Virus record (IMG/VR): IMGVR_UViG_3300042387_000948
Span: 1-64,000 of that record
Reading direction: 5' to 3' (one strand)
Source: a virus
DNA length: 64,000 bases
Shown here: positions 1 through 32,360 of the stretch, one piece after another
How positions within the stretch are numbered: the first letter of the stretch is position 1
Layout of the letters: each line of letters begins with the position of its first letter
Program-made: the position numbers and the translations under genes
The notes under the pieces: generated by a model
What the model saw: only the letters and a program-made list of their open reading frames with translations
What the model was told of the DNA's origin: nothing
The model's database searches: none

Positions 1-2271
1 CGATATTCTATCTCCAACTCTATTGTATGATATGTTGAATGTATTGTTGTTTTTATGTAAGTTCAATCCACCATTTACTACATAGTTTGATTGTCCTTGC
101 AATTGTCTTTTTACTGAACCGATTTGTACTTCCGAATTGATAAACGATGTGTTTGAATATAAATCTATCCAATCATTTAATTTCTTACGAAGTTCAATCT
201 CAACTCCATATACCAATGCTTCTTTTGGGTTTTTATATGTTAGTAAAAGGTTTGATGGAACTGAACCATCTGCTACAACTTGCTCAATTGGATTGAAGAA
301 CTTTTTACCAAAGAAACCGATTGATATGTTCTCACCTGATTTAGGATACAACTCAAACTTTATATCTGAATTGAATATATCCGTTTTTTGTAAGTTTGGA
401 TTTCCTAATAGTTGTGCGTTTCTAACAAAATCATAATATGCAAAATTAGCTACCTCTCTAAACTCTGGTCTTGCTAATGTTTTACTTACGGATAATCTAA
501 CCTTTTTTTTTTCCGATGTAGAATAGGTTGCGTTTAATGATGGTAGTAAATCCAAATACTCTCTATCTACTGAAATCCGTTGTCCACCAAAATCAGATGT
601 TTGAACTTTAAATAAATTGTATTCCGTTCTAAAACCTGTGTTTATTTTTAATTTATCAATTTCTTTTTCATACATCACATATGCATTTGCCAAATCAAAA
701 TCGGCAGTATATCTATCAGTATTGTTTGTAATCTCATTTAATAAATCAGTTGATTCGTATCTGAATATTCTTGCTTTGAAGTTTCTAAATTTCTTCAAGT
801 AACCCACTCCTAAACGAACATCTCCTATGGATTTGTTCAATCCCCCATTGAATGAGTTTTCATCCATTACACTCCAAAAACGATACGTGTCTCTCCATGC
901 TATTGAGTAAGGAGTTGTTGTATATAAAGATGATATGTAAGGTGTTACTCTATAATCGGGCTGGTCTCTTAACATAAGATTGTATCCTAAATTAAAATCA
1001 AATGTTTTAAACTTACCTTCGAATTGTGTATTGAATACTAACTTTTGAATTGAGTTGGATGATTTACTATCTACATACTGAACATTATCGTAGTTCTCAC
1101 CAACTCTACTTAAAAATGATTTTTCGTTTTGGTAGTTAGCAAGTGTTTTCCAACTATAACGATTCTCACCTAAATAAACTATATTTAATAATCCATTTAA
1201 TGATTGTACATTTGAATAGTTCTGGTCTTTATAGTTGTATGCTAATTCAGTTGATGATTGGTAATCAATTCTTTTAGTTGTGTTGGCAGAGTATGTGTTT
1301 CTTGCAGTTGAACTGAATAAGATGTTCCATTTGTTTTTAACAACACCAAATGATAAGTTACCATTTAAGTTTGGAATAGATGTTGATGTTTCGGTTTGCG
1401 GAGAACCTATTAGTTTAGTGTATGCTCTTCTATCACCTAATCCCGCAATTCTATATCCATTTGTTGATGGAAATGATGTTGGGAATTGTATAGCGTCTAC
1501 CAACCTAAAATCCTGTCCCGTTGATAGTGAACCCCAACTGCCCCCCAATGATATATTAAAGAAATCACCACTAACTTCTTTTGTTGTTATTTGTACTAAA
1601 CCTCCTGCGAAATCACCGGGTAGGTTTGCAGATGCTCCTTTGTTGATGATGATATTATCTATTAGTGATGTTGGGATAATATCAAATGAGAATGCTCTTC
1701 TATCAGGTTCGGTTGATGGTAGGATTGATTTGTTTAGTAGAGCCAAGTTGTATCTATCAGCTAAACCTCTAACTAAAACAAACTTATCGTTTTGGATTGT
1801 TACACCACTAACTCTTTTAAGTGCATCTCCAACAGTTCTATCTGGTGTTTTCTTTATTGATTCAATTGATAAACCATCTGCTACAATGTAAGATGCTTTA
1901 AGTGTATTGATAAGTGCAGTTGCAGTTTCTTTCTTTGCTACTTGCTTTACCACAACTTCTTGCAATACCTTTGTATCTTCTTCAATTAGGATATCTAAAT
2001 TGGTATCTCCATTAATTGTAATATCTTTTGTGTATTCTTTATATCCAACAAATGATGCTTTAATTGAATAGTTTCCAACTACTACATTTTGGAATTGATA
2101 TTTGGATTCAATATCAGATGTACTTCCAACTTTTTTATTTGTATCTTTGTTAGTTAGCCAAATTGTAACTCCAATGAGTTCTTCTTTATTTGATTTTGTT
2201 TTACCCGATAAGGTTTGTGAAAAGGATATTGTAGGAATTAGTAACGTTAATAATAAAAGTAGTTTCCTCAT
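1..2271 (-). CDS. TonB-dependent outer-membrane receptor, C-terminus beyond window
   Basis: The frame is open from the ATG at 2271 to the window edge, giving at least 757 residues. It starts with a Sec signal peptide (MRKLLLLLTLLIPTISFSQ), followed by a carboxypeptidase-D regulatory-like domain (about residues 20-105, ending in the TonB-box-like VLQEVVVK), then a plug domain (LVRGLADRYN, GASANLPGDFAGGLVQI) and the start of a beta-barrel. Such receptors import large substrates across the outer membrane with energy from TonB. The family is typical of Bacteroidota chromosomes and unusual in a phage; the rest of the barrel lies outside the window. No SusD partner is seen. Confidence 0.9.
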   Translation of the reverse strand, partial: MRKLLLLLTLLIPTISFSQTLSGKTKSNKEELIGVTIWLTNKDTNKKVGSTSDIESKYQFQNVVVGNYSIKASFVGYKEYTKDITINGDTNLDILIEEDTKVLQEVVVKQVAKKETATALINTLKASYIVADGLSIESIKKTPDRTVGDALKRVSGVTIQNDKFVLVRGLADRYNLALLNKSILPSTEPDRRAFSFDIIPTSLIDNIIINKGASANLPGDFAGGLVQITTKEVSGDFFNISLGGSWGSLSTGQDFRLVDAIQFPTSFPSTNGYRIAGLGDRRAYTKLIGSPQTETSTSIPNLNGNLSFGVVKNKWNILFSSTARNTYSANTTKRIDYQSSTELAYNYKDQNYSNVQSLNGLLNIVYLGENRYSWKTLANYQNEKSFLSRVGENYDNVQYVDSKSSNSIQKLVFNTQFEGKFKTFDFNLGYNLMLRDQPDYRVTPYISSLYTTTPYSIAWRDTYRFWSVMDENSFNGGLNKSIGDVRLGVGYLKKFRNFKARIFRYESTDLLNEITNNTDRYTADFDLANAYVMYEKEIDKLKINTGFRTEYNLFKVQTSDFGGQRISVDREYLDLLPSLNATYSTSEKKKVRLSVSKTLARPEFREVANFAYYDFVRNAQLLGNPNLQKTDIFNSDIKFELYPKSGENISIGFFGKKFFNPIEQVVADGSVPSNLLLTYKNPKEALVYGVEIELRKKLNDWIDLYSNTSFINSEVQIGSVKRQLQGQSNYVVNGGLNLHKNNNTFNISYNRVGDRIS

Positions 2272-13180: not shown

Positions 13181-13447
13181 TTAGTTTTTATATTTTTCGA
13201 TGAGGTTTTTAAGTTCGGTAAAAACCGCTCCTACTTCATCATCTGCTTCGAAAGAACCTTTTATATCTAAGGCTCTCATCTCATCTAACATTTTCTCCAA
13301 TGTTGTTTGTGATTCTTCAACTACATCATCAGCTTCTAAAATTGCATCAGCTAGTTCTTCGTTTTGTTTCACCAATATCATACCTCTTATAAAAAGAATA
13401 ATATTAAAAATAATGGAGATTGTTAGGATTGTATATAACAATATCAT
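13181..13447 (-). CDS. Single-span membrane protein with coiled coil, 88 aa
   Basis: An N-terminal transmembrane segment (LLYTILTISIIFNIILFI) precedes an acidic helical region with heptad-like Leu/Met spacing (EESQTTLEKMLDEMRAL). The function is unknown. It is the first gene after the host-like promoter at 13469-13500, upstream of the sigma factor. Confidence 0.7.
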   Translation of the reverse strand: MILLYTILTISIIFNIILFIRGMILVKQNEELADAILEADDVVEESQTTLEKMLDEMRALDIKGSFEADDEVGAVFTELKNLIEKYKN

Positions 13448-13468
13448 AATTTATTTGTTTATATCTTA

Positions 13469-13500
13469 CAAAGATACAACATTATTTCGAATAAACCAAA
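13469..13500 (-). promoter_or_regulatory. Bacteroidota-type promoter (TTTGG-N19-TATCTTTG)
   Basis: Exact match to the -7 consensus TAnnTTTG with TTTGG 19 bp upstream. It drives the genes at 13181, 12423 and 12049. Confidence 0.85.
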
Positions 13501-13515
13501 TTATTGGGAAAGTTT

Positions 13516-13761
13516 TTATGCTTCCCCAATTTGATTACCCATAAACATAGTTGTAAGTATCTCCGAATCGGATTGTTTTGTTTTTGTTTTCTTTACTTGC
13601 TTCTTTTGTTCCTTCTTTAATTCGGAAGTTAGTGAATCAACTCTTTCTTGACATAACTTTTGAATTTCAACTTGAGTCATAATTCCTTTTTGGATTAGTA
13701 TATCTGCCAACGATTCTACTAAAATTTGTGATGATAAAATTTGTCTTTCTAATTCGTTCAT
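13516..13761 (-). CDS. Small charged helical protein, 81 aa, unknown
   Basis: A helix-rich protein with a basic low-complexity segment (KKEQKKQVKKTKTKQ) near residue 55. Not recognised. Its start overlaps the stop of the 13761 gene by one base, and it is the last gene before the next promoter. Confidence 0.65.
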   Translation of the reverse strand: MNELERQILSSQILVESLADILIQKGIMTQVEIQKLCQERVDSLTSELKKEQKKQVKKTKTKQSDSEILTTMFMGNQIGEA

Positions 13762-14608: not shown

Positions 14609-15760
14609 TTAATTTGATAATGGTGCTTTAATTTTTGGATGTGATTCGTAACCTATTAATTCAAAACAATCAGGTCTATAAGATAGTATTATATCTCTAA
14701 ATGTTTTTGGTCCTAAATTCTCTTTTACTTTTTCGTGCTGATACCAATTCCTTTCGGTGATTTCAACTTTTGGTAAACTATAAGGTTCTCTACTGATTTG
14801 TTCTTTGGCTTGTTCGATATGGTTTTTATATAAATGTACATCTCCCAAATTACCAATCAAATCTTCCGGCACCATATTTACTTCTTTCGCAATAATCTCT
14901 AATAGTAATGCATAAGATGCTATGTTAAAAGGTAATCCCAAAAATGTATCACAACTACGTTGATTCCACATTAAAGAGATTGCACGTTTAGGAATGTTAT
15001 GTTTATCTAATACATCATCTAAAAAATGTTCACCTTCTGGTAATCCCATATGTCTACTTCTTTCAAATTTACTCAACTCTCTTGTATAAACTTGGAATCC
15101 ATAATGACAAGGTGGTAAAACCATTTGGTCTAACTCCGCTACGTTCCAAGCTGATACCATCAATCTTCTACTATCTGGATTTGTTTTTAAGGAATGAACT
15201 AATTGTAGGATTTGGTCATACCACAATGAACCAAATCCGTTTGAACCATCATCTCTCTTATATTGCATCCACCCTTGCCATTGCCTCCATTGCTTACCAT
15301 AGATTGGACCTAAATCTCCCCACTTCTTTGCAAACTCATTATTGGTTTTGATTTGTTTAATGAATTCTTCTTTTGATAATACACTACTCTTTATTTGGTT
15401 TCCTACTGAATCCATTACTTCTTGAAATTCGGATATATCATTAGGAACATTTAATGTAGATGTATATTCTTCAACTTTACTTACATAGTTCTTATATGTA
15501 TCACCATCCCAAATGTGGCAATCGTAATCCAATAGGAATTTGATGTTAGTATCACCTCTTAAAAACCATAGGAGTTCTGTCACAATGGAATTCCAATGCA
15601 TCTTTTTTGTAGTAAGTAATGGAAACCCCTCACTCATCTTATGTCGTATTTGATGTCCAAACTCTGATATAGTACCTGTTCCGGTTCTATCTTTTTTTTC
15701 TACACCAAATTCAATAATATCATTAAGTAATTGTTGATACTTTTTATCTATTGTATTCAT
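14609..15760 (-). CDS. thyA: Thymidylate synthase, enlarged
   Basis: It makes dTMP from dUMP with methylene-tetrahydrofolate. Diagnostic elements are in order: DRTGTGT, WGDLGPIYGKQWR, SRRLMVSAWN, the nucleophile in LPPCHYGFQ (Cys about 218), RSCDTFLGLPFNIASY and GDVHLYKNH. At 383 aa it is much longer than the usual ~265; the extra residues lie about 85-145 (before WGDLGP) and 225-250. It pairs with dCMP deaminase at 24233 to supply dTTP. Its start overlaps the stop of the 15744 gene. Confidence 0.95.
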   Translation of the reverse strand: MNTIDKKYQQLLNDIIEFGVEKKDRTGTGTISEFGHQIRHKMSEGFPLLTTKKMHWNSIVTELLWFLRGDTNIKFLLDYDCHIWDGDTYKNYVSKVEEYTSTLNVPNDISEFQEVMDSVGNQIKSSVLSKEEFIKQIKTNNEFAKKWGDLGPIYGKQWRQWQGWMQYKRDDGSNGFGSLWYDQILQLVHSLKTNPDSRRLMVSAWNVAELDQMVLPPCHYGFQVYTRELSKFERSRHMGLPEGEHFLDDVLDKHNIPKRAISLMWNQRSCDTFLGLPFNIASYALLLEIIAKEVNMVPEDLIGNLGDVHLYKNHIEQAKEQISREPYSLPKVEITERNWYQHEKVKENLGPKTFRDIILSYRPDCFELIGYESHPKIKAPLSN

Positions 15761-26007: not shown

Positions 26008-27384
26008 TTAAATTCCAATATTTTTTAATCGGAGTAATTCAGCTTTGATAGCTTGATTAAATTGATTCCAAGTAATGTTCTCCAACATCCACTTTCTATA
26101 CCATATAGGTATTTTTCTGATTGGTGTATCTTTGTATTTTCCAAATGTCATAATCACATCAGGACTTTCTTCTGCTAATTCGTGCGGAGATTTCTGTCCT
26201 TCTATATGTAATCCAACTTCATGCAACGGAATACCAGTCAACAACTTTTGACCTTCCCCATAGAGTTTCCACATCACACCTTCTTTCTTAAAGTATAAAT
26301 CCTCAACCTTTCCAAATTTCGGAACACTACCTACAAAATCTATAACCAATCCATTTGGCTTTTCGGAGTGGATACGAGTTACCCTACCCACAAACTGATA
26401 CCACCAACTTAAAGATGCAGTAGGTCTACCTGTAATGATACAATCTAATTGAGGATGGTCAAATCCTACCGAAAGAATAGTAACTTGAACTACAATTCGT
26501 AATCGTAGGTTTTTGAAATCATCAATAATCCTATCTCTATCCTTATCAGGCATTCCGCTATATACTGCTTCGCAAGATGGTAATTGTGTTGATAACAATT
26601 TAGCATCATCAATTGAGGGTACGGCAACTAATATAGATTTTCTATCAGGCATATCCGAAATCTTCTTCATAATCTTACCACCAATATCTTGGTTTTTGTA
26701 AGCTTTCTGAATTGATTCATCGGTGAACTCTGCGTTGGTTGAATTGTAAACCAAATCCCCAGTATTAAAATCATATGATTCATATTTTAGAGGAGACCAA
26801 AATTGTAAATCAACCATCTCTTTAATTTGAGCCACATGAAGTACCTCCTTAAAGAATATACCCTTTTTAGAACGGGATGTCAACATTACCAATTTAGAAA
26901 AAGGTCTTCCATCATCCCCCATATTGGTTTGTAACTTTAATGGAGTTGCGGTTAATCCTAATACGTGAGTTGTTTTTGCAGCATCTAAAAATCTTCGCAT
27001 CATTCCTTTAGGGTCTCTTGGAAATCTATCACACTCATCGATAATGACTTTGGTGATACCCATATCCTTAAACTTGTATGCGATGTTTACAATCGAACCA
27101 ATGGTTGCATAGGTAACGTGTCCAATCTCTTTCTCCCCCATTGCAGCCGAATAGATAGATGCTTCCCCACCCAACCCTATAAACTTATTATAGTTCTGCT
27201 CTAAGAGTTCTTTGGATGGTTGGATAACTAATAACTTCTCTCCAACTTCTTTTGCTATCTGAGCGATAACAATTGATTTACCGAATGCCGTTGGGGCAAC
27301 AATAATTGAGGGAACGGCTTTCTTTTGCTTAAAGAATTCCACTCCCTTTTTAACAGGTTCTATTTGATTAGGTCTTAACTGCAC
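26008..27384 (-). CDS. UvsW-like superfamily 2 helicase with C-terminal DUF3820-like domain
   Basis: Helicase motifs in order: PTAFGKS (residues about 31-37), IIDECDRF (116-119 DECD), GLTATPLK, LVAVPSIDD, TILSVGFDHPQLDCII and YQFVGRVTRI. The order and size match T4 UvsW, which branch-migrates DNA and resolves R-loops at origins. The tail (about residues 415-440, MTFGKYKDTPIRKIP) resembles the DUF3820 domain, an addition not in T4 UvsW. It starts 11 bp after the 27395 gene. Confidence 0.88.
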   Translation of the reverse strand: MQLRPNQIEPVKKGVEFFKQKKAVPSIIVAPTAFGKSIVIAQIAKEVGEKLLVIQPSKELLEQNYNKFIGLGGEASIYSAAMGEKEIGHVTYATIGSIVNIAYKFKDMGITKVIIDECDRFPRDPKGMMRRFLDAAKTTHVLGLTATPLKLQTNMGDDGRPFSKLVMLTSRSKKGIFFKEVLHVAQIKEMVDLQFWSPLKYESYDFNTGDLVYNSTNAEFTDESIQKAYKNQDIGGKIMKKISDMPDRKSILVAVPSIDDAKLLSTQLPSCEAVYSGMPDKDRDRIIDDFKNLRLRIVVQVTILSVGFDHPQLDCIITGRPTASLSWWYQFVGRVTRIHSEKPNGLVIDFVGSVPKFGKVEDLYFKKEGVMWKLYGEGQKLLTGIPLHEVGLHIEGQKSPHELAEESPDVIMTFGKYKDTPIRKIPIWYRKWMLENITWNQFNQAIKAELLRLKNIGI

Positions 27385-27394
27385 TCTTTAATTT

Positions 27395-27715
27395 TTATAG
27401 GTATTGAACTCCATACACACCATAACGAGCAGTTCCATCAACGATGTTACCTCTACTATGTTTGGCAGGAGAATCACGAGAAGCGGCTTTCATTAAATCA
27501 CCTTTCTTAATTGGAACACCTTTGTATTCACCATCATATCGGGAGATAAATCCCCACACACTTCCGTTACTAATTAATTTGATAAACTTAGTACCAACAC
27601 GCATCTCCATTGGTTTGGGTGTTAGGTTTGATAAGTGAGTTGAATAATACTCTTCGATTTCAGCATTCACTTTTTCAATAAACTTTTCAACGATGGGGTT
27701 ATTGTAATTTTTCAT
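27395..27715 (-). CDS. Unknown phage protein, 106 aa
   Basis: Helical start (KFIEKVNAEIEEYY) then strands rich in Gly (GTKFIKLISNGSVWGFI, GVPIKKGDLMKAAS). First gene of the helicase operon, behind the 27742 promoter. Not recognised. Confidence 0.7.
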   Translation of the reverse strand: MKNYNNPIVEKFIEKVNAEIEEYYSTHLSNLTPKPMEMRVGTKFIKLISNGSVWGFISRYDGEYKGVPIKKGDLMKAASRDSPAKHSRGNIVDGTARYGVYGVQYL

Positions 27716-27849: not shown

Positions 27850-27881
27850 TTAGGATTTCCCATTTTTTCTTCGTATCTTTG
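27850..27881 (+). promoter_or_regulatory. Bacteroidota-type promoter of the TonB receptor cassette (TTAGG-N19-TATCTTTG)
   Basis: The only plus-strand promoter found. TTAGG, 19 bp, TATCTTTG. It lies 196 bp upstream of the receptor start, leaving a leader of about 190 nt. Confidence 0.8.
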
Positions 27882-27932
27882 TTAAAATTTTATATCTATC
27901 AAATAGTTATAAAAGGATAGAAAAAATTGCCT

Positions 27933-28010
27933 ATGTTAGACAAACAAATAAATCTAAAAAAAGTTACATTTACAAACGAGCCGTTTAACGTACAATTATT
28001 CTATCTATAA
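27933..28010 (+). CDS. 25-residue leader ORF upstream of the TonB receptor
   Basis: ATG TTA GAC AAA ... TAA, 25 codons plus stop, starts MLDKQINLKK and ends NVQLFYL. Its TAA is 2 bases before the hairpin at 28013. It resembles attenuation leader peptides in position, though no runs of a regulatory amino acid are obvious. Coding status is inferred from position only. Confidence 0.45.
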   Translation: MLDKQINLKKVTFTNEPFNVQLFYL

Positions 28011-28012
28011 GC

Positions 28013-28040
28013 AGGTGTGGGATGTCCCTACACCTTTTTT
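28013..28040 (+). terminator. Attenuator-like hairpin before the TonB receptor
   Basis: AGGTGTGGG pairs with CCCTACACCT (one bulge), followed by TTTTTT. It lies within the leader, 38 bp upstream of the receptor ATG, so it could stop transcription before the gene. Confidence 0.8.
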
Positions 28041-28077
28041 ATTTTAATTAAACAAACAAAACAAAAACAAAAAAAGT

Positions 28078-31000
28078 ATGAGAAAGTTAAAAAATCTAAT
28101 GTTACTTTTGTTGGTATTCGTATCATCATTTGGAGCATTTGCACAAGAAACTACATCAGAAATTCAAGGTAATGTTTTGGCAGGTAAGGAAGCTATCGCA
28201 GGTGCAACTGTACAGGCTATCCATCAACCAACCGGTACGAAGTATGGTACAACCACTCGTGCTGATGGAAGATATAACCTACCAAACTTAAAAATTGGAG
28301 GACCTTATGTAGTTACAGTATCATTTGTGGGATACAAAAACGAAACACAAAATGATATTACATTATTGTTAGGACAGACACATAGAGCTAACTTTAATTT
28401 AGTGGAATCATCTACTACCTTAAACGAAGTCGTTGTTGTATCAGGTCAAAACAAAGTTTTCAACTCAAGCCGTAATGGTTCGCAGGAGATTATCAATAGA
28501 AGATTAATCGAATCAGTACCAAACGTAAATCGTAGTTGGAAAGATTTAGTTAAATTAGTACCATCACAAAACAACTTATCGTTTGGTGGTATGAGTTCTC
28601 AATTGAATAACGTAACATTAGATGGTGCGAACTTCAATAACTCATTTGGATTGGGTGATGGAACATTGGGAGGACAGACTGGAGCGCAACCAATCTCATT
28701 AGATGCGATTGAACAAATCCAAGTAAACGTTTCTCCTTTTGATGTTAAGTATGGTGGTTTCGCAGGTGGCTCGGTGAACACTGTAACTCGTAGTGGTAAG
28801 AATCAGGCATTTGGTTCGGTTTACCAATTTTTTAAGAATAAAGATTTGCAAGGGTATAAGGTAGGTGATATCACTTTACCACAACAACCATTCACATATG
28901 ACCTTAAAGGTTTCACCGCAGGTGGTGCAATTGTTAAGGATAAGTTGTTTTTCTTCTTAAACGGAGAGCAAGAAGAAAGAATGGAGCCGGGTACTCAATG
29001 GGTAGCATCAGATGCTAACAATACACCAAATGGTACTAACGTATCACAGGCAAAAACATCTGATTTAGATGCGTTGAGAAAGTTCTTAATTGATACTTAC
29101 AAATATGACCCCGGTGCATATCAAGGTTATCAGTATGGTTCTAAATCACAAAGATTAACTGCAAAGATAGATTGGAATATTAATGCAAAGAATTCGTTCT
29201 CATTGAAATATACAATGTTACGTTCTTCAGCTGATATCCCAGCATCTAATAGTGGTTCAATTAACTCATCAAATGGTAGAAGACCGGGTAACACAGCAAT
29301 GCCTTTCTTTGGTAGTGGATACATCATCAACAACGATGCGGATATCTTAATTGGTGAGTTGAACACTCGATTCTCTAATTCGGCAAATAACAAATTGCAA
29401 ATTGGATATACTCAATTGAGAGATTATAGAGCACCTTTAAGTGTTGGTAATTTCCCACAAGTAGATATCTTAGATGGTAATGGCTTACCTTACACAACGT
29501 TTGGTTATGAAAGATTTACATATGGTAACGTATTGAATACTGATGTAATTCAACTTAATAACATTTTCAACTTATACAAAGGTAAGCACGAATTTACATT
29601 TGGTACACAAAACTCATTCAAAACTTATTCAAATGGTTTTTCACCTTCATTCGCAGGTGCATATCGTTTCAATAGTTTAGCAGATTTCTACGCTTCGGCA
29701 GCAGGAACAAAACCAGCAGCGTTCTATGATTTATCATATTCATTGAGTGGTGGTTTCCCATTGGTTGGACCAAAGAATATGGAGTTAAGTTTATTTGCGC
29801 AAGATAAGTTTAGAGTAAAAGATAATTTAACTTTAACATATGGTATTAGAGCTGATTATGTTTCGTTTGCTGATAACTTCCTTTTCAATCCAGTAGTTGC
29901 TGGTTTAGATAAGTTCTATAATGGTACGAAATTAAACACAGGTTTAGCACCATCTGCTTCACTACAAATATCACCAAGAGTTGGATTTAACTGGGATGTG
30001 AATGATGACCAAACTTTACAAATACGAGGTGGTACTGGTTTATTCCAAGGACCTCCACCATTTGTATGGATTTCAAATCAGGCATCTAATAGTGGTATGG
30101 CATTATTTGGCTCTATTACAAATGGAACTGGATATGTATTCTCACCTGATATTGATAAATATAGACCAACGCCAACGCCAGGTTTATCCAAATCATATTC
30201 TCTTAACGTAACTGACCCTAATTATAAATTCCCACAGGTTTGGAAATCTACATTAGCAGTTGATAAGAAAGTATTAGGTTGGACCGTAACTGCGGAGGGA
30301 ACTTATATCCAAAACATCAACGCTACTGTTTTCCAAAACGTTGCATTACCATCATCGGGTAACACAACATTAAGTGATGGTAGAACTCGTTTCGTTAAAC
30401 GTTCGGTATATGATGCGGTTGGTGCGGCTCAAACTGCGGAGAATCCAAACATTGGTAATGCAATCTATATGACGAATGCAAACATCGGTCATACTTTATT
30501 TGGAACATTACAAATCCAAAGACAATTTAATAACTTAGGTGTAAACGCTTCTTATACTCGCCAAACGGCAGTAGATGCAACAATCAATGGTTCAACTGCA
30601 TTTACAATGTGGGGAGCTAGACCGACTGGTACTGACCCTAACAACTTTGAGGCAGGTTTTTCAAACAACTATTTACCTCATAGAATTATTGCTAGTGTGA
30701 ACTATGGTAAGGAATTTATTAAGAATACAAGAACTTCAATTGGTTTATTGTATGAAGCATCTCCTAACAGCGCACAAACATCTCTTTCATACACATATGG
30801 TGGTGATTTGAATAACGATGGTTTCAATGGTAACGATTTAATCTTCGTTCCTAAAGATGCATCTCAAATCAAATTAACTAACGCATCTGCGGTAAGTGGT
30901 GTAGCTGATACAAGAACACAAGCTGAACTATGGTCTCAATTAGATGCTTTTATTTCAAACAATCCTTATCTTTCAACTCGTAGAGGTATGATGGCAGAAA

Positions 31001-31338
31001 GACAAGCATTAGTTCTTCCGTGGGTTCATAGATTAGATTTGAATTTAACGCAAGATGTTTACATTAAAGTTGGAGCTATAAAGCATACATTACGTTTTAC
31101 TGCTGATGTATATAACTTCACAAACTTTATTAGTAGTAAATTGGGTGTTCAACAATTACCTACAACAATCACTCCACTTAACTTTGTTAAATTGGATACT
31201 GATGGTAAAACACCAATCTTCGCATTCCCATATTTGGATGGAAGAAACAAAGTTCCGTTTACTGATTCATTCAGAGATAACGTAGGATTTGGTTCTCGCT
31301 ACCAAATTCAATTAGGTGTAAGATACCTATTCAACTAA
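28078..31338 (+). CDS. TonB-dependent receptor, Oar-like
   Basis: A 1086-aa receptor: signal peptide (MRKLKNLMLLLLVFVSSFGAFAQ, shown in part: first 23 residues), carboxypeptidase-regulatory-like domain (about 25-120; GNVLAGKEAIAGATV, GPYVVTVSFVGYKNE), TonB-box-like STTLNEVVVVSG, plug domain (NRSWKDLVKLVPSQ, ISLDAIEQIQVNVSPFDV, GSVNTVTRSG) and a long barrel ending LGVRYLF. It resembles Oar-type receptors of Bacteroidota. It is the only large gene on the plus strand, with its own promoter, leader and terminator. No SusD gene follows. Confidence 0.95.
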   Translation: MRKLKNLMLLLLVFVSSFGAFAQETTSEIQGNVLAGKEAIAGATVQAIHQPTGTKYGTTTRADGRYNLPNLKIGGPYVVTVSFVGYKNETQNDITLLLGQTHRANFNLVESSTTLNEVVVVSGQNKVFNSSRNGSQEIINRRLIESVPNVNRSWKDLVKLVPSQNNLSFGGMSSQLNNVTLDGANFNNSFGLGDGTLGGQTGAQPISLDAIEQIQVNVSPFDVKYGGFAGGSVNTVTRSGKNQAFGSVYQFFKNKDLQGYKVGDITLPQQPFTYDLKGFTAGGAIVKDKLFFFLNGEQEERMEPGTQWVASDANNTPNGTNVSQAKTSDLDALRKFLIDTYKYDPGAYQGYQYGSKSQRLTAKIDWNINAKNSFSLKYTMLRSSADIPASNSGSINSSNGRRPGNTAMPFFGSGYIINNDADILIGELNTRFSNSANNKLQIGYTQLRDYRAPLSVGNFPQVDILDGNGLPYTTFGYERFTYGNVLNTDVIQLNNIFNLYKGKHEFTFGTQNSFKTYSNGFSPSFAGAYRFNSLADFYASAAGTKPAAFYDLSYSLSGGFPLVGPKNMELSLFAQDKFRVKDNLTLTYGIRADYVSFADNFLFNPVVAGLDKFYNGTKLNTGLAPSASLQISPRVGFNWDVNDDQTLQIRGGTGLFQGPPPFVWISNQASNSGMALFGSITNGTGYVFSPDIDKYRPTPTPGLSKSYSLNVTDPNYKFPQVWKSTLAVDKKVLGWTVTAEGTYIQNINATVFQNVALPSSGNTTLSDGRTRFVKRSVYDAVGAAQTAENPNIGNAIYMTNANIGHTLFGTLQIQRQFNNLGVNASYTRQTAVDATINGSTAFTMWGARPTGTDPNNFEAGFSNNYLPHRIIASVNYGKEFIKNTRTSIGLLYEASPNSAQTSLSYTYGGDLNNDGFNGNDLIFVPKDASQIKLTNASAVSGVADTRTQAELWSQLDAFISNNPYLSTRRGMMAERQALVLPWVHRLDLNLTQDVYIKVGAIKHTLRFTADVYNFTNFISSKLGVQQLPTTITPLNFVKLDTDGKTPIFAFPYLDGRNKVPFTDSFRDNVGFGSRYQIQLGVRYLFN

Positions 31339-31346
31339 TAATTAAG

Positions 31347-31374
31347 GGGAGGGAATCAAATCCCTCCCTTTTTT
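31347..31374 (+). terminator. Rho-independent terminator after the TonB receptor
   Basis: GGGAGGGA/TCCCTCCC stem with TTTTTT on the plus strand, 9 bp after the stop. Downstream genes would need read-through or an unseen promoter. Confidence 0.9.
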
Positions 31375-31378
31375 ATCT

Positions 31379-31918
31379 ATGACAAAAATTATAAATTTAT
31401 TTGGTGGACCTGGCATTGGGAAATCCACACAAGCCGCCGGTCTATATTATGAAATGAAGAAACTTAATATGAATGTAGAAATGCCATATGAGTTTCCAAA
31501 GTTATTAGCATGGGATAAGAGTTATGAAATGGTGAAAGACCAATTGTATGTATTGGCTAATCAACATAGGAACATAGCAAGGTTACATGGGCAGGTTGAT
31601 TACATTGTAGTTGATTCTCCTATTATGTTAAGTTTGGTATATAAGAATCGATACTCAAATGATTTAGATTATCCAGCCGCATTTTACGGATTTACATTCA
31701 ATGAGTTTGTAGTTGATTTGCATAAGCAGTACAACTCAATTAACATTGTATTGGAAAGAGATGATTCTATGTTTCAAACCGATGGTAGATTTCAGAGTTT
31801 GGAAGAAAGTAAAGAGATTGACGATGATATAACAACAGTATTAAAACAATACGATATAGATTACTATCCAATCAAAGTAAACGAAAAAAGTATAGATACA
31901 ATTTTATCACTTTTATAA
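31379..31918 (+). CDS. P-loop kinase/ATPase, NadR- or AAA_28-like, 179 aa
   Basis: Walker A GGPGIGKSTQAAGLY (residues about 9-23), a possible Walker B DYIVVDSPI, and a lid-like RDDSMFQTDGRFQS segment. This fits small phage kinases related to the ribosylnicotinamide-kinase part of NadR or thymidylate-kinase-like enzymes. The substrate cannot be assigned. Plus strand, just after the receptor terminator. Confidence 0.75.
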   Translation: MTKIINLFGGPGIGKSTQAAGLYYEMKKLNMNVEMPYEFPKLLAWDKSYEMVKDQLYVLANQHRNIARLHGQVDYIVVDSPIMLSLVYKNRYSNDLDYPAAFYGFTFNEFVVDLHKQYNSINIVLERDDSMFQTDGRFQSLEESKEIDDDITTVLKQYDIDYYPIKVNEKSIDTILSLL

Positions 31919-31929
31919 AAGAATATATT

Positions 31930-32325
31930 ATGACTAGTCAAGAATACACACAATGGTTGAAAGGTTTTTTAGATGCGGTAGATGGATACAACATTACCAA
32001 AAGACAATTTGATTCAATCAGAGAAAAATTAAAAGAAGTAGAGGATGCTCCTATTGGATTTCCTATTGGTAGTGGTGGGTTTGGAACTCCGGCAGTAGTA
32101 CCACAATTGGGTGGTGGTTGGATATCAACTGGAACTCCAAATATTATGCCATTGAGTGGAACTATTACAACAGGAGGTTCGGTTACTACAACACAATTTC
32201 CCGGTTCAACTTTAACTTATACGGATACAAGTGGAAATAGTAGTACATATACAATACCAAACACAACTAATAATATATTTACAAATCAAAGTAGTAAAGA
32301 TGATGATAAGTTGTTAATGGATTAA
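31930..32325 (+). CDS. Phage protein with Gly/Thr-rich tail, 131 aa
   Basis: A helical start (QEYTQWLKGFLDAVDGYNIT, SIREKLKEVED) gives way to a Gly/Ser/Thr-rich C-terminal part (FPIGSGGFGTPAVV, TITTGGSVTTTQ). The N-terminal helix-loop resembles small conserved phage proteins of unknown role. 11 bp after the kinase gene and ends at a shared terminator. Confidence 0.7.
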   Translation: MTSQEYTQWLKGFLDAVDGYNITKRQFDSIREKLKEVEDAPIGFPIGSGGFGTPAVVPQLGGGWISTGTPNIMPLSGTITTGGSVTTTQFPGSTLTYTDTSGNSSTYTIPNTTNNIFTNQSSKDDDKLLMD

Positions 32326-32331
32326 AATAAA

Positions 32332-32360
32332 AAAGGGAAGTAAATCTTCCCTTTCTTTTT
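32332..32360. terminator. Bidirectional terminator between convergent genes
   Basis: AAAGGGAAG and CTTCCCTTT form a perfect stem with loop TAAAT; it serves the plus gene ending at 32325 and the minus gene ending at 32360. Confidence 0.9.

Follow-up and report, generated by a model that had tools for sequence, protein, structure and literature searches.

A TonB-dependent receptor gene behind a leader open reading frame and a terminator in large contractile-tailed phages: a candidate translation-gated slot for outer-membrane cargo

The window analyzed here, i.e. the first 64 kilobases (kb; 64,000 nucleotides, nt) of the 207,029-base IMG/VR virus record IMGVR_UViG_3300042387_000948, contains at positions 28078–31338 a plus-strand gene encoding a complete TonB-dependent receptor of 1086 amino acids (aa), which is separated from its promoter by a short leader open reading frame (ORF) and an intrinsic terminator. 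A comparison of viral and bacterial homologues showed that this terminator is characteristic of the phage copies, and the geometry of the leader ORF suggests that translation of the leader controls the expression of the receptor. The elements of the control region and the receptor gene, with free energies of folding (dG) given for the hairpins, are:

27850–27881, plus strand: promoter of the Bacteroidota sigma-A type, i.e. TTAG (-33 position), 20 nt and TATCTTTG (-7 box), recognized by sequence, relatives and consensus
27888–28040, plus strand: leader RNA, folded into a 5' stem-loop, a long helix around the leader ORF and the terminator
27933–28010, plus strand: leader ORF of 25 codons, MLDKQINLKKVTFTNEPFNVQLFYL, with a stop ending 2 nt before the hairpin
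28013–28045, plus strand: intrinsic terminator between the leader ORF and the receptor start, hairpin 28013–28035 with a T-rich tail (dG -13.6)
28078–31338, plus strand: TonB-dependent receptor of clade A, 1086 aa, supported by Pfam, a structure model, the ratio of nonsynonymous to synonymous substitution rates (dN/dS) and an EVVV motif
31344–31379, plus strand: terminator behind the receptor (31344–31371, dG -18.1), separated by 5 nt from the receptor stop and by 7 nt from the ATG of the gene that follows

A preliminary description of this locus had claimed for the receptor its own plus-strand promoter, a 25-codon leader ORF stopping 2 nt before a terminator-like hairpin, and a terminator behind the gene; all three were recovered, the promoter with boxes of the Bacteroidota type that are kept in the relatives. 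The -7 box TATCTTTG at 27874–27881 fits TAnnTTTG, the -7 consensus of the Bacteroidota sigma-A (PMC9723704), the relatives having TTTG, 20 nt and TATATTTG at the same place, and the transcription start would be at approximately 27888. The predicted fold of the leader has an energy of -35.9 kcal/mol (z = -5.0 against dinucleotide shuffles, none of the 200 being as good). A search of the window against Rfam produced no gathering-level match, and chance-level matches appeared only in the leader of locus L204. No second promoter of a recognized class was found between the terminator and the receptor start. A late promoter of the phage within the terminator's T-tail was also considered and rejected, since the late-type motif ATATTTATA, seen before the sheath and tail genes, is not present there; in G000 several structural genes (tail, sheath) have this motif about 50 nt upstream, and it probably represents the late promoter. 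Since the receptor promoter is of the host sigma-A type, unlike ATATTTATA, the receptor is likely to be expressed early.

The product of 28078–31338 contains the Pfam domains CarboxypepD_reg, Plug and OMP_b-brl_4 and belongs to the Oar/OMP_b-brl_4 type. Its AlphaFold2 model with a plug and a barrel (predicted local distance difference test score, pLDDT, 79.8; predicted template modeling score, pTM, 0.78) had exclusively TonB-dependent receptors as top PDB matches: FusA, PirA, YddB, PfeA and Cir. Foldseek matched it to FusA with an E-value of 1e-31, in agreement with the plug and 22-strand barrel fold that characterizes these receptors. A sequence search of the PDB gave no match for the receptor, and PHROGs included no family for it. 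The N-terminus, MRKLKNLMLLLLVFVSSFGAFAQE, is a signal peptide, judging by sequence only. A TonB-box-like EVVVV is present in the window receptor, and EVVV at residues 117–120 was invariant in eight aligned phage copies. The dN/dS between the phage copies was 0.06–0.20; in terms of pN/pS the plug was the most constrained part (0.066), and the outer loops had a value of 0.20, with no diversifying or hypervariable loops seen in the phage copies. The constrained plug and loops, together with the invariant TonB box, indicate selection for a working transporter, and we propose that the protein is an intact TonB-coupled outer-membrane transporter displayed on the surface of the infected cell. The receptor was better conserved (83–89% identity) than the neighboring kinase-like protein (51–64%) and helicase (77–82%).

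A first scan of viral contigs identified 16 receptor loci, most of them 83–100% identical over the matched part, and the use of an alignment as the query extended this to 80 viral loci with 31–100% receptor identity. In a quick tree with several long branches, which included 74 bacterial homologues, the label changed between phage and bacterium at least nine times. Clade A, to which the window belongs, was placed with a 69% sister group among freshwater Chitinophagales genes, and the second phage clade (clade B, ca. 37% aa identity) was located elsewhere in the tree. Four small contigs (L195, L197, L199 and L203) grouped with bacteria and may be either other phages or misclassified pieces of hosts, L195 having clear phage neighbors; L180 and L182, bacterial by name, fell inside clade B. 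The phage gene is likely derived from Chitinophagales-like hosts, whose Oar/OMP_b-brl_4 receptors have the same domain order and up to 68% identity; the bacterial genes differ in having short 5' regions without a leader ORF and a terminator. With respect to the criteria for auxiliary metabolic genes, the receptor is host-derived and constrained in the phages, the benefit side being hypothetical.

Terminators were counted by one criterion, a hairpin with a dG of at most -8 and no more than 75 nt from the gene start. By this count, 52 of the 65 full-length phage copies had one directly before the receptor, against 3 of the 73 bacterial homologues, and after removal of near copies the proportions were 34/43 and 2/71, respectively. 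The bacterial 5' regions were mostly short and free of terminators. At a cut-off of dG -10, a terminator preceded 103 of approximately 1338 other phage genes (ca. 8%) and none of the 91 bacterial genes of at least 700 aa. In the 207-kb record, terminators were located between genes at 9 of the 231 genes. A gene for a 539-aa GroEL-like protein (by its start sequence) in L213, L239 and L242 also has a terminator before it.

Of 43 phage leaders, 41 had an ATG-initiated ORF, with predicted translation, that extended as far as the hairpin, against 12.7 expected. When counted by leader families (13, with no detectable nucleotide similarity), the values were 11.8 and 3.6, respectively. The stop codon was inside the hairpin in many phage leaders, but in only 10 of 134 ordinary phage genes. 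The pooled pN/pS of the leader peptide was 0.84, indicating little constraint on the peptide itself, albeit by a weak test, because the RNA structure also limits silent changes; a peptide-specific function was rejected on this ground and because the peptides differ between the families. Clade A leaders have a second, short hairpin before the terminator with a few compensatory changes. About 20 nt past the likely start they also share a conserved ATAGTTAT, often forming the 3' strand of the 5' stem-loop, and a similar AGTTAC is present in the leaders of L194 and L214. In BLAST, the leader turned up before receptor 1 and nowhere else except as partial matches, and the possibility of a mobile element placed before other genes was rejected for this reason. 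In L194, the leader is 73–75% identical to those of the clade-B phages L214, L238 and L256, and the coding sequence is 79–86% identical to clade A, with the changeover approximately at the start codon, from which it appears that leader and receptor coding sequence are able to recombine apart.

Taken together, the observations make it rather probable that the locus serves as a slot for outer-membrane cargo and that a ribosome occluding the terminator would gate the expression of this cargo in a pyrBI-like manner. Host RNA polymerase would initiate at the sigma-A type promoter, and, if the leader is left untranslated, most transcripts would stop directly short of the receptor, at the intrinsic terminator. 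If it is translated, a ribosome trailing the polymerase would reach the stop at the foot of the hairpin or inside it (or pass through), block the folding by sitting on the 5' arm, and let the polymerase read on into the receptor and the kinase-like gene. The receptor output would thus be tied to leader translation: on when translation is brisk and coupled, and off when it lags. In E. coli, shortening the distance between a stop codon and the terminator behind it from 28 to 5 bp decreased termination from ca. 90% to below 10%, and uncoupled translation restored it (PMC4824070); with the same or tighter geometry present here, we propose by analogy that leader translation admits the polymerase to the receptor gene. 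The E. coli pyrBI (pyrL) attenuator similarly has an ORF running up to or into the terminator, a trailing ribosome blocking the hairpin and termination as the default in untranslated RNA, and the phage loci share with this type a terminator between promoter and gene and an ORF stop near, in or beyond the hairpin. In contrast to pyrBI proper, the phage element precedes an outer-membrane receptor and a kinase-like gene instead of a pyrimidine operon, the position of the stop (before, inside or beyond the hairpin) depends on the phage, and no T-run sensing uridine triphosphate is claimed.

Several observations weigh against such gating. Thirteen of the 65 phage receptor copies had no terminator by the criterion used, the hairpin covariation was modest, and the window leader was too divergent for a good alignment with the main clade-A leaders. 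A stop-to-terminator spacing of 0–10 nt was also found behind 57 of 134 ordinary genes of these phages, and, because close spacing is so common there, the geometry alone is no proof of regulation. About nine of the clade-B leaders have an ordinary Hc1-like gene, followed by its terminator, as the upstream ORF; at L210 4751–4933 and similar clade-B loci this gene encodes 60 aa and ends 7 nt before the pre-receptor terminator.

One alternative, which we consider unlikely, regards the hairpin as nothing more than the terminator of a tiny gene or small RNA; the receptor would then be expressed at a constant low level through leak-through or by an unrecognized phage promoter, and translation would not be sensed. 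It agrees with the use of intergenic terminators elsewhere in these phages (9/231 genes in the record and ca. 8% in the relatives), with the close spacing of stop and hairpin behind ordinary genes and with the ordinary upstream gene of the Hc1-type loci. However, it leaves unexplained why nearly all ORFs reach the hairpin while the leader peptides are almost free in sequence, why stops inside a hairpin are rare elsewhere, and why bacterial homologues lack the element; nor is there a promoter of a known class between the terminator and the start. Much less probable is an attenuator of the trp/his type, in which starvation for an amino acid encoded by the leader (Tyr, Asn and Thr look frequent) would stall the ribosome early and allow an antiterminator to form. 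A Tyr/Asn-rich stretch (e.g. NILVYTYxxNSA) is indeed common to the clade-A leaders and a hairpin stands just before the terminator, but no conserved antiterminator was found, the upstream pairing probability of the terminator 5' arm varying from 0.01 to 0.68 with different partners; moreover, Tyr, Asn and Thr are also expected from AT-rich codons and the motif is absent from most of the leader families. Attenuation by leader peptides is believed to occur in Bacteroidota, namely in the amino-acid operons of Flavobacterium (PMC9723704), but those attenuators precede biosynthesis operons, while the phage leader has no evident amino-acid specificity.

The surroundings of the receptor, together with a second receptor at the start of the record, are the following:

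26008–27715, minus strand: left border of the slot, UvsW-like helicase (26008–27384) and a 106-aa gene (27395–27715) (Pfam, PHROGs)
31379–31918, plus strand: AAA_28/phrog_2107 nucleotide-kinase-like gene (Pfam, PHROGs)
31930–32325, plus strand: 131-aa gene (ORF call), the last of the plus-strand unit, before a bidirectional terminator at 32332–32354
1–2271, minus strand: second TonB-dependent receptor, OMP_b-brl_3 type and TIGR01782-like (Pfam), 757 of ca. 830 aa, cut by the record start and lacking the arrangement of leader ORF and terminator

The 207-kb record, which contains a gene for a contractile tail sheath, belongs to a contractile-tailed phage of a jumbo-phage lineage that probably has freshwater Bacteroidota as hosts. 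The same receptor flanks recurred in a 133-kb contig (100% identical) and in about 12 contigs with 83–97% identical receptors, and the position of the receptor, with the UvsW-like helicase on one side and a variable array of small genes on the other, was constant in contigs up to 274 kb. The preliminary description had raised the possibility of a chimera with a host contig and had asked whether the unit occurs in related phages. It does, in the same slot with the same flanks, and, despite a host-type receptor nested among Chitinophagales homologues, an assembly chimera or host contamination is hardly conceivable with the same junctions and slot repeated in many independent contigs, up to 274 kb and with a tail-sheath gene, with phage genes on both sides. 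The claim of a self-contained unit held only in part: the leader and the hairpin are real and conserved and the slot is fixed, but two more plus-strand genes share the transcription unit, and leader and coding sequence are separable, as in L194. Similarly, the remaining genome is nearly, but not entirely, read from the minus strand, since a few further plus-strand ORFs of 80–138 aa are present in the 207-kb record. One ORF of 114 aa (13200–13544, plus strand) is located where the array of minus-strand genes in the window leaves a gap.

The slot was surveyed in 51 contigs by means of the helicase/106-aa gene border. Where the helicase was at least 75% identical and the slot was visible, 24 of the 25 contigs had a receptor in it (19 of type A or its sister and 5 of type B), and the remaining one had an OmpA-like protein (L286 5342–6478, minus strand). 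A group at 72% helicase identity (L288 5357–6768, minus strand) had a glycosyltransferase and an LpxH-like phosphoesterase in the slot, and more distant phages had no opposite-strand cargo there. The occupation by receptor A, receptor B or an OmpA-like protein points to a slot for envelope-related cargo. In L013 (6416–7724), genes for a leucine-rich-repeat protein and a 2OG-Fe(II) oxygenase are inserted between the 106-aa gene and the receptor promoter. Homologues of the kinase-like gene are located behind the receptor in L195, L207, L214 and clade A; its sequence search against the PDB gave only an irrelevant match.

Relatives of the second receptor were found at no fewer than 76 viral loci (61–100% identity), with complete frames of ca. 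830 aa, a number of viral contigs suggesting that receptors are widely distributed among these phages. A terminator was present before this gene in only 5 of 55 cases, the other 50 being without. The two receptors, which are unrelated, occurred together on several contigs; in L207 (8331–11632) receptor 1, the kinase-like gene and receptor 2 are located near one another within one 221-kb phage contig.

As for the benefit to the phage, the preliminary description had suggested superinfection block, altered host range or feeding of the infected cell, all of which are possible, and two readings came out nearly even. In the first, a tentative one, the receptor would supply the infected cell with a scarce compound, possibly but not necessarily nucleoside-like, that the neighboring kinase may trap. 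This agrees with the intact TonB-dependent receptor fold under strong constraint, with the second unrelated receptor in the same genomes, with the nucleotide-kinase-like gene often adjoining, and with a secreted endonuclease gene adjoining the receptor in L195 and L210. The best structural matches are, however, general and indicate no substrate, and among the proteins accepted by the slot is an OmpA-like one, not a transporter of this kind. A precedent is the SusC-like TonB-dependent receptor of the marine megaphage Mar_Mega_1, reported as a solitary auxiliary gene and interpreted as serving uptake (PMC9723777). It, too, is a complete TonB-dependent receptor encoded by a phage of very large size; a phage SusC model, BFVD entry A0A8D9FQQ5, which is probably this receptor or its relative, was similar to the window receptor in Foldseek (E-value 5e-28). 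In contrast to the window receptor, the Mar_Mega_1 protein is of the SusC type (ca. 11% identity), and the available part of that report describes neither an attenuator nor a slot or a receptor swap.

In the second reading, of slightly lower standing, the phage-made outer-membrane protein would replace, mask or decoy a receptor that competing phages use. The cargo of the slot, i.e. two distant receptor types, an OmpA-like protein or, in the distant group, a glycosyltransferase with an LpxH-like phosphoesterase, consists of plausible envelope modifiers, and the swap with the OmpA-like protein argues for surface remodeling. The lambdoid phage PA-2 brings the porin Lc, which displaces its own receptor OmpC. 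The Cor protein of phi80/N15, which inactivates FhuA, is another phage-encoded change of the outer membrane linked to superinfection exclusion (PMC11436027). The receptor slot resembles both as a phage-encoded outer-membrane change, which for Lc and Cor is linked to superinfection exclusion, but Lc is a porin and Cor a FhuA inactivator, and in neither case is there a TonB-dependent receptor behind a translation-gated leader. Against surface exclusion stand the outer loops, which are conserved (pN/pS 0.20) and not diversifying, and the constrained plug (0.066) with the kept TonB box, needless for a passive decoy.

Several genes elsewhere in these genomes were also recorded. The DNA/RNA non-specific endonuclease (PF01223) with a signal peptide was located at L210 8355–8990, L195 8905–9552 and, on the minus strand, G000 157019–157648. 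The thymidylate synthase in the window (14609–15760, minus strand) has 383 aa against a profile of 266 positions and, therefore, more than 100 extra residues; its homologue adjoins the receptor in L016. G000 includes a cluster of glycosyltransferase-like and sugar-epimerase-like genes at 108–123 kb, judged from the starts of the sequences, and, at approximately 159000 on the minus strand, a tRNA-like 3' end (GGTTCGAATCCCGCC...CCA) followed by a strong terminator and a 428-aa gene, as seen in the printed upstream sequence.

A limited search covering part of the literature found no phage receptor gene with a leader attenuator, and the comparative results, including the phage-specific design of a terminator and a leader ORF before receptors, are what is new here. 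TonB-dependent receptors are usually seen as doors for phages, and here large phages bring their own, of at least two distant types and often with a second unrelated receptor. The wider proposal, made with some reserve, is that Bacteroidota jumbo phages may maintain a dedicated outer-membrane slot behind a translation-sensing attenuator, so that the surface would be remodeled only while ribosomes keep pace, the cargo being swapped and the control persisting, in a design that may have formed around receptors acquired in more than one capture. Should the leader function in the proposed way, it would be a phage switch that reads the state of translation in the infected cell, applies it to a surface protein and lends itself to testing in a small reporter construct, and the slot would serve as a marker locus for other envelope-remodeling genes in Bacteroidota phages.

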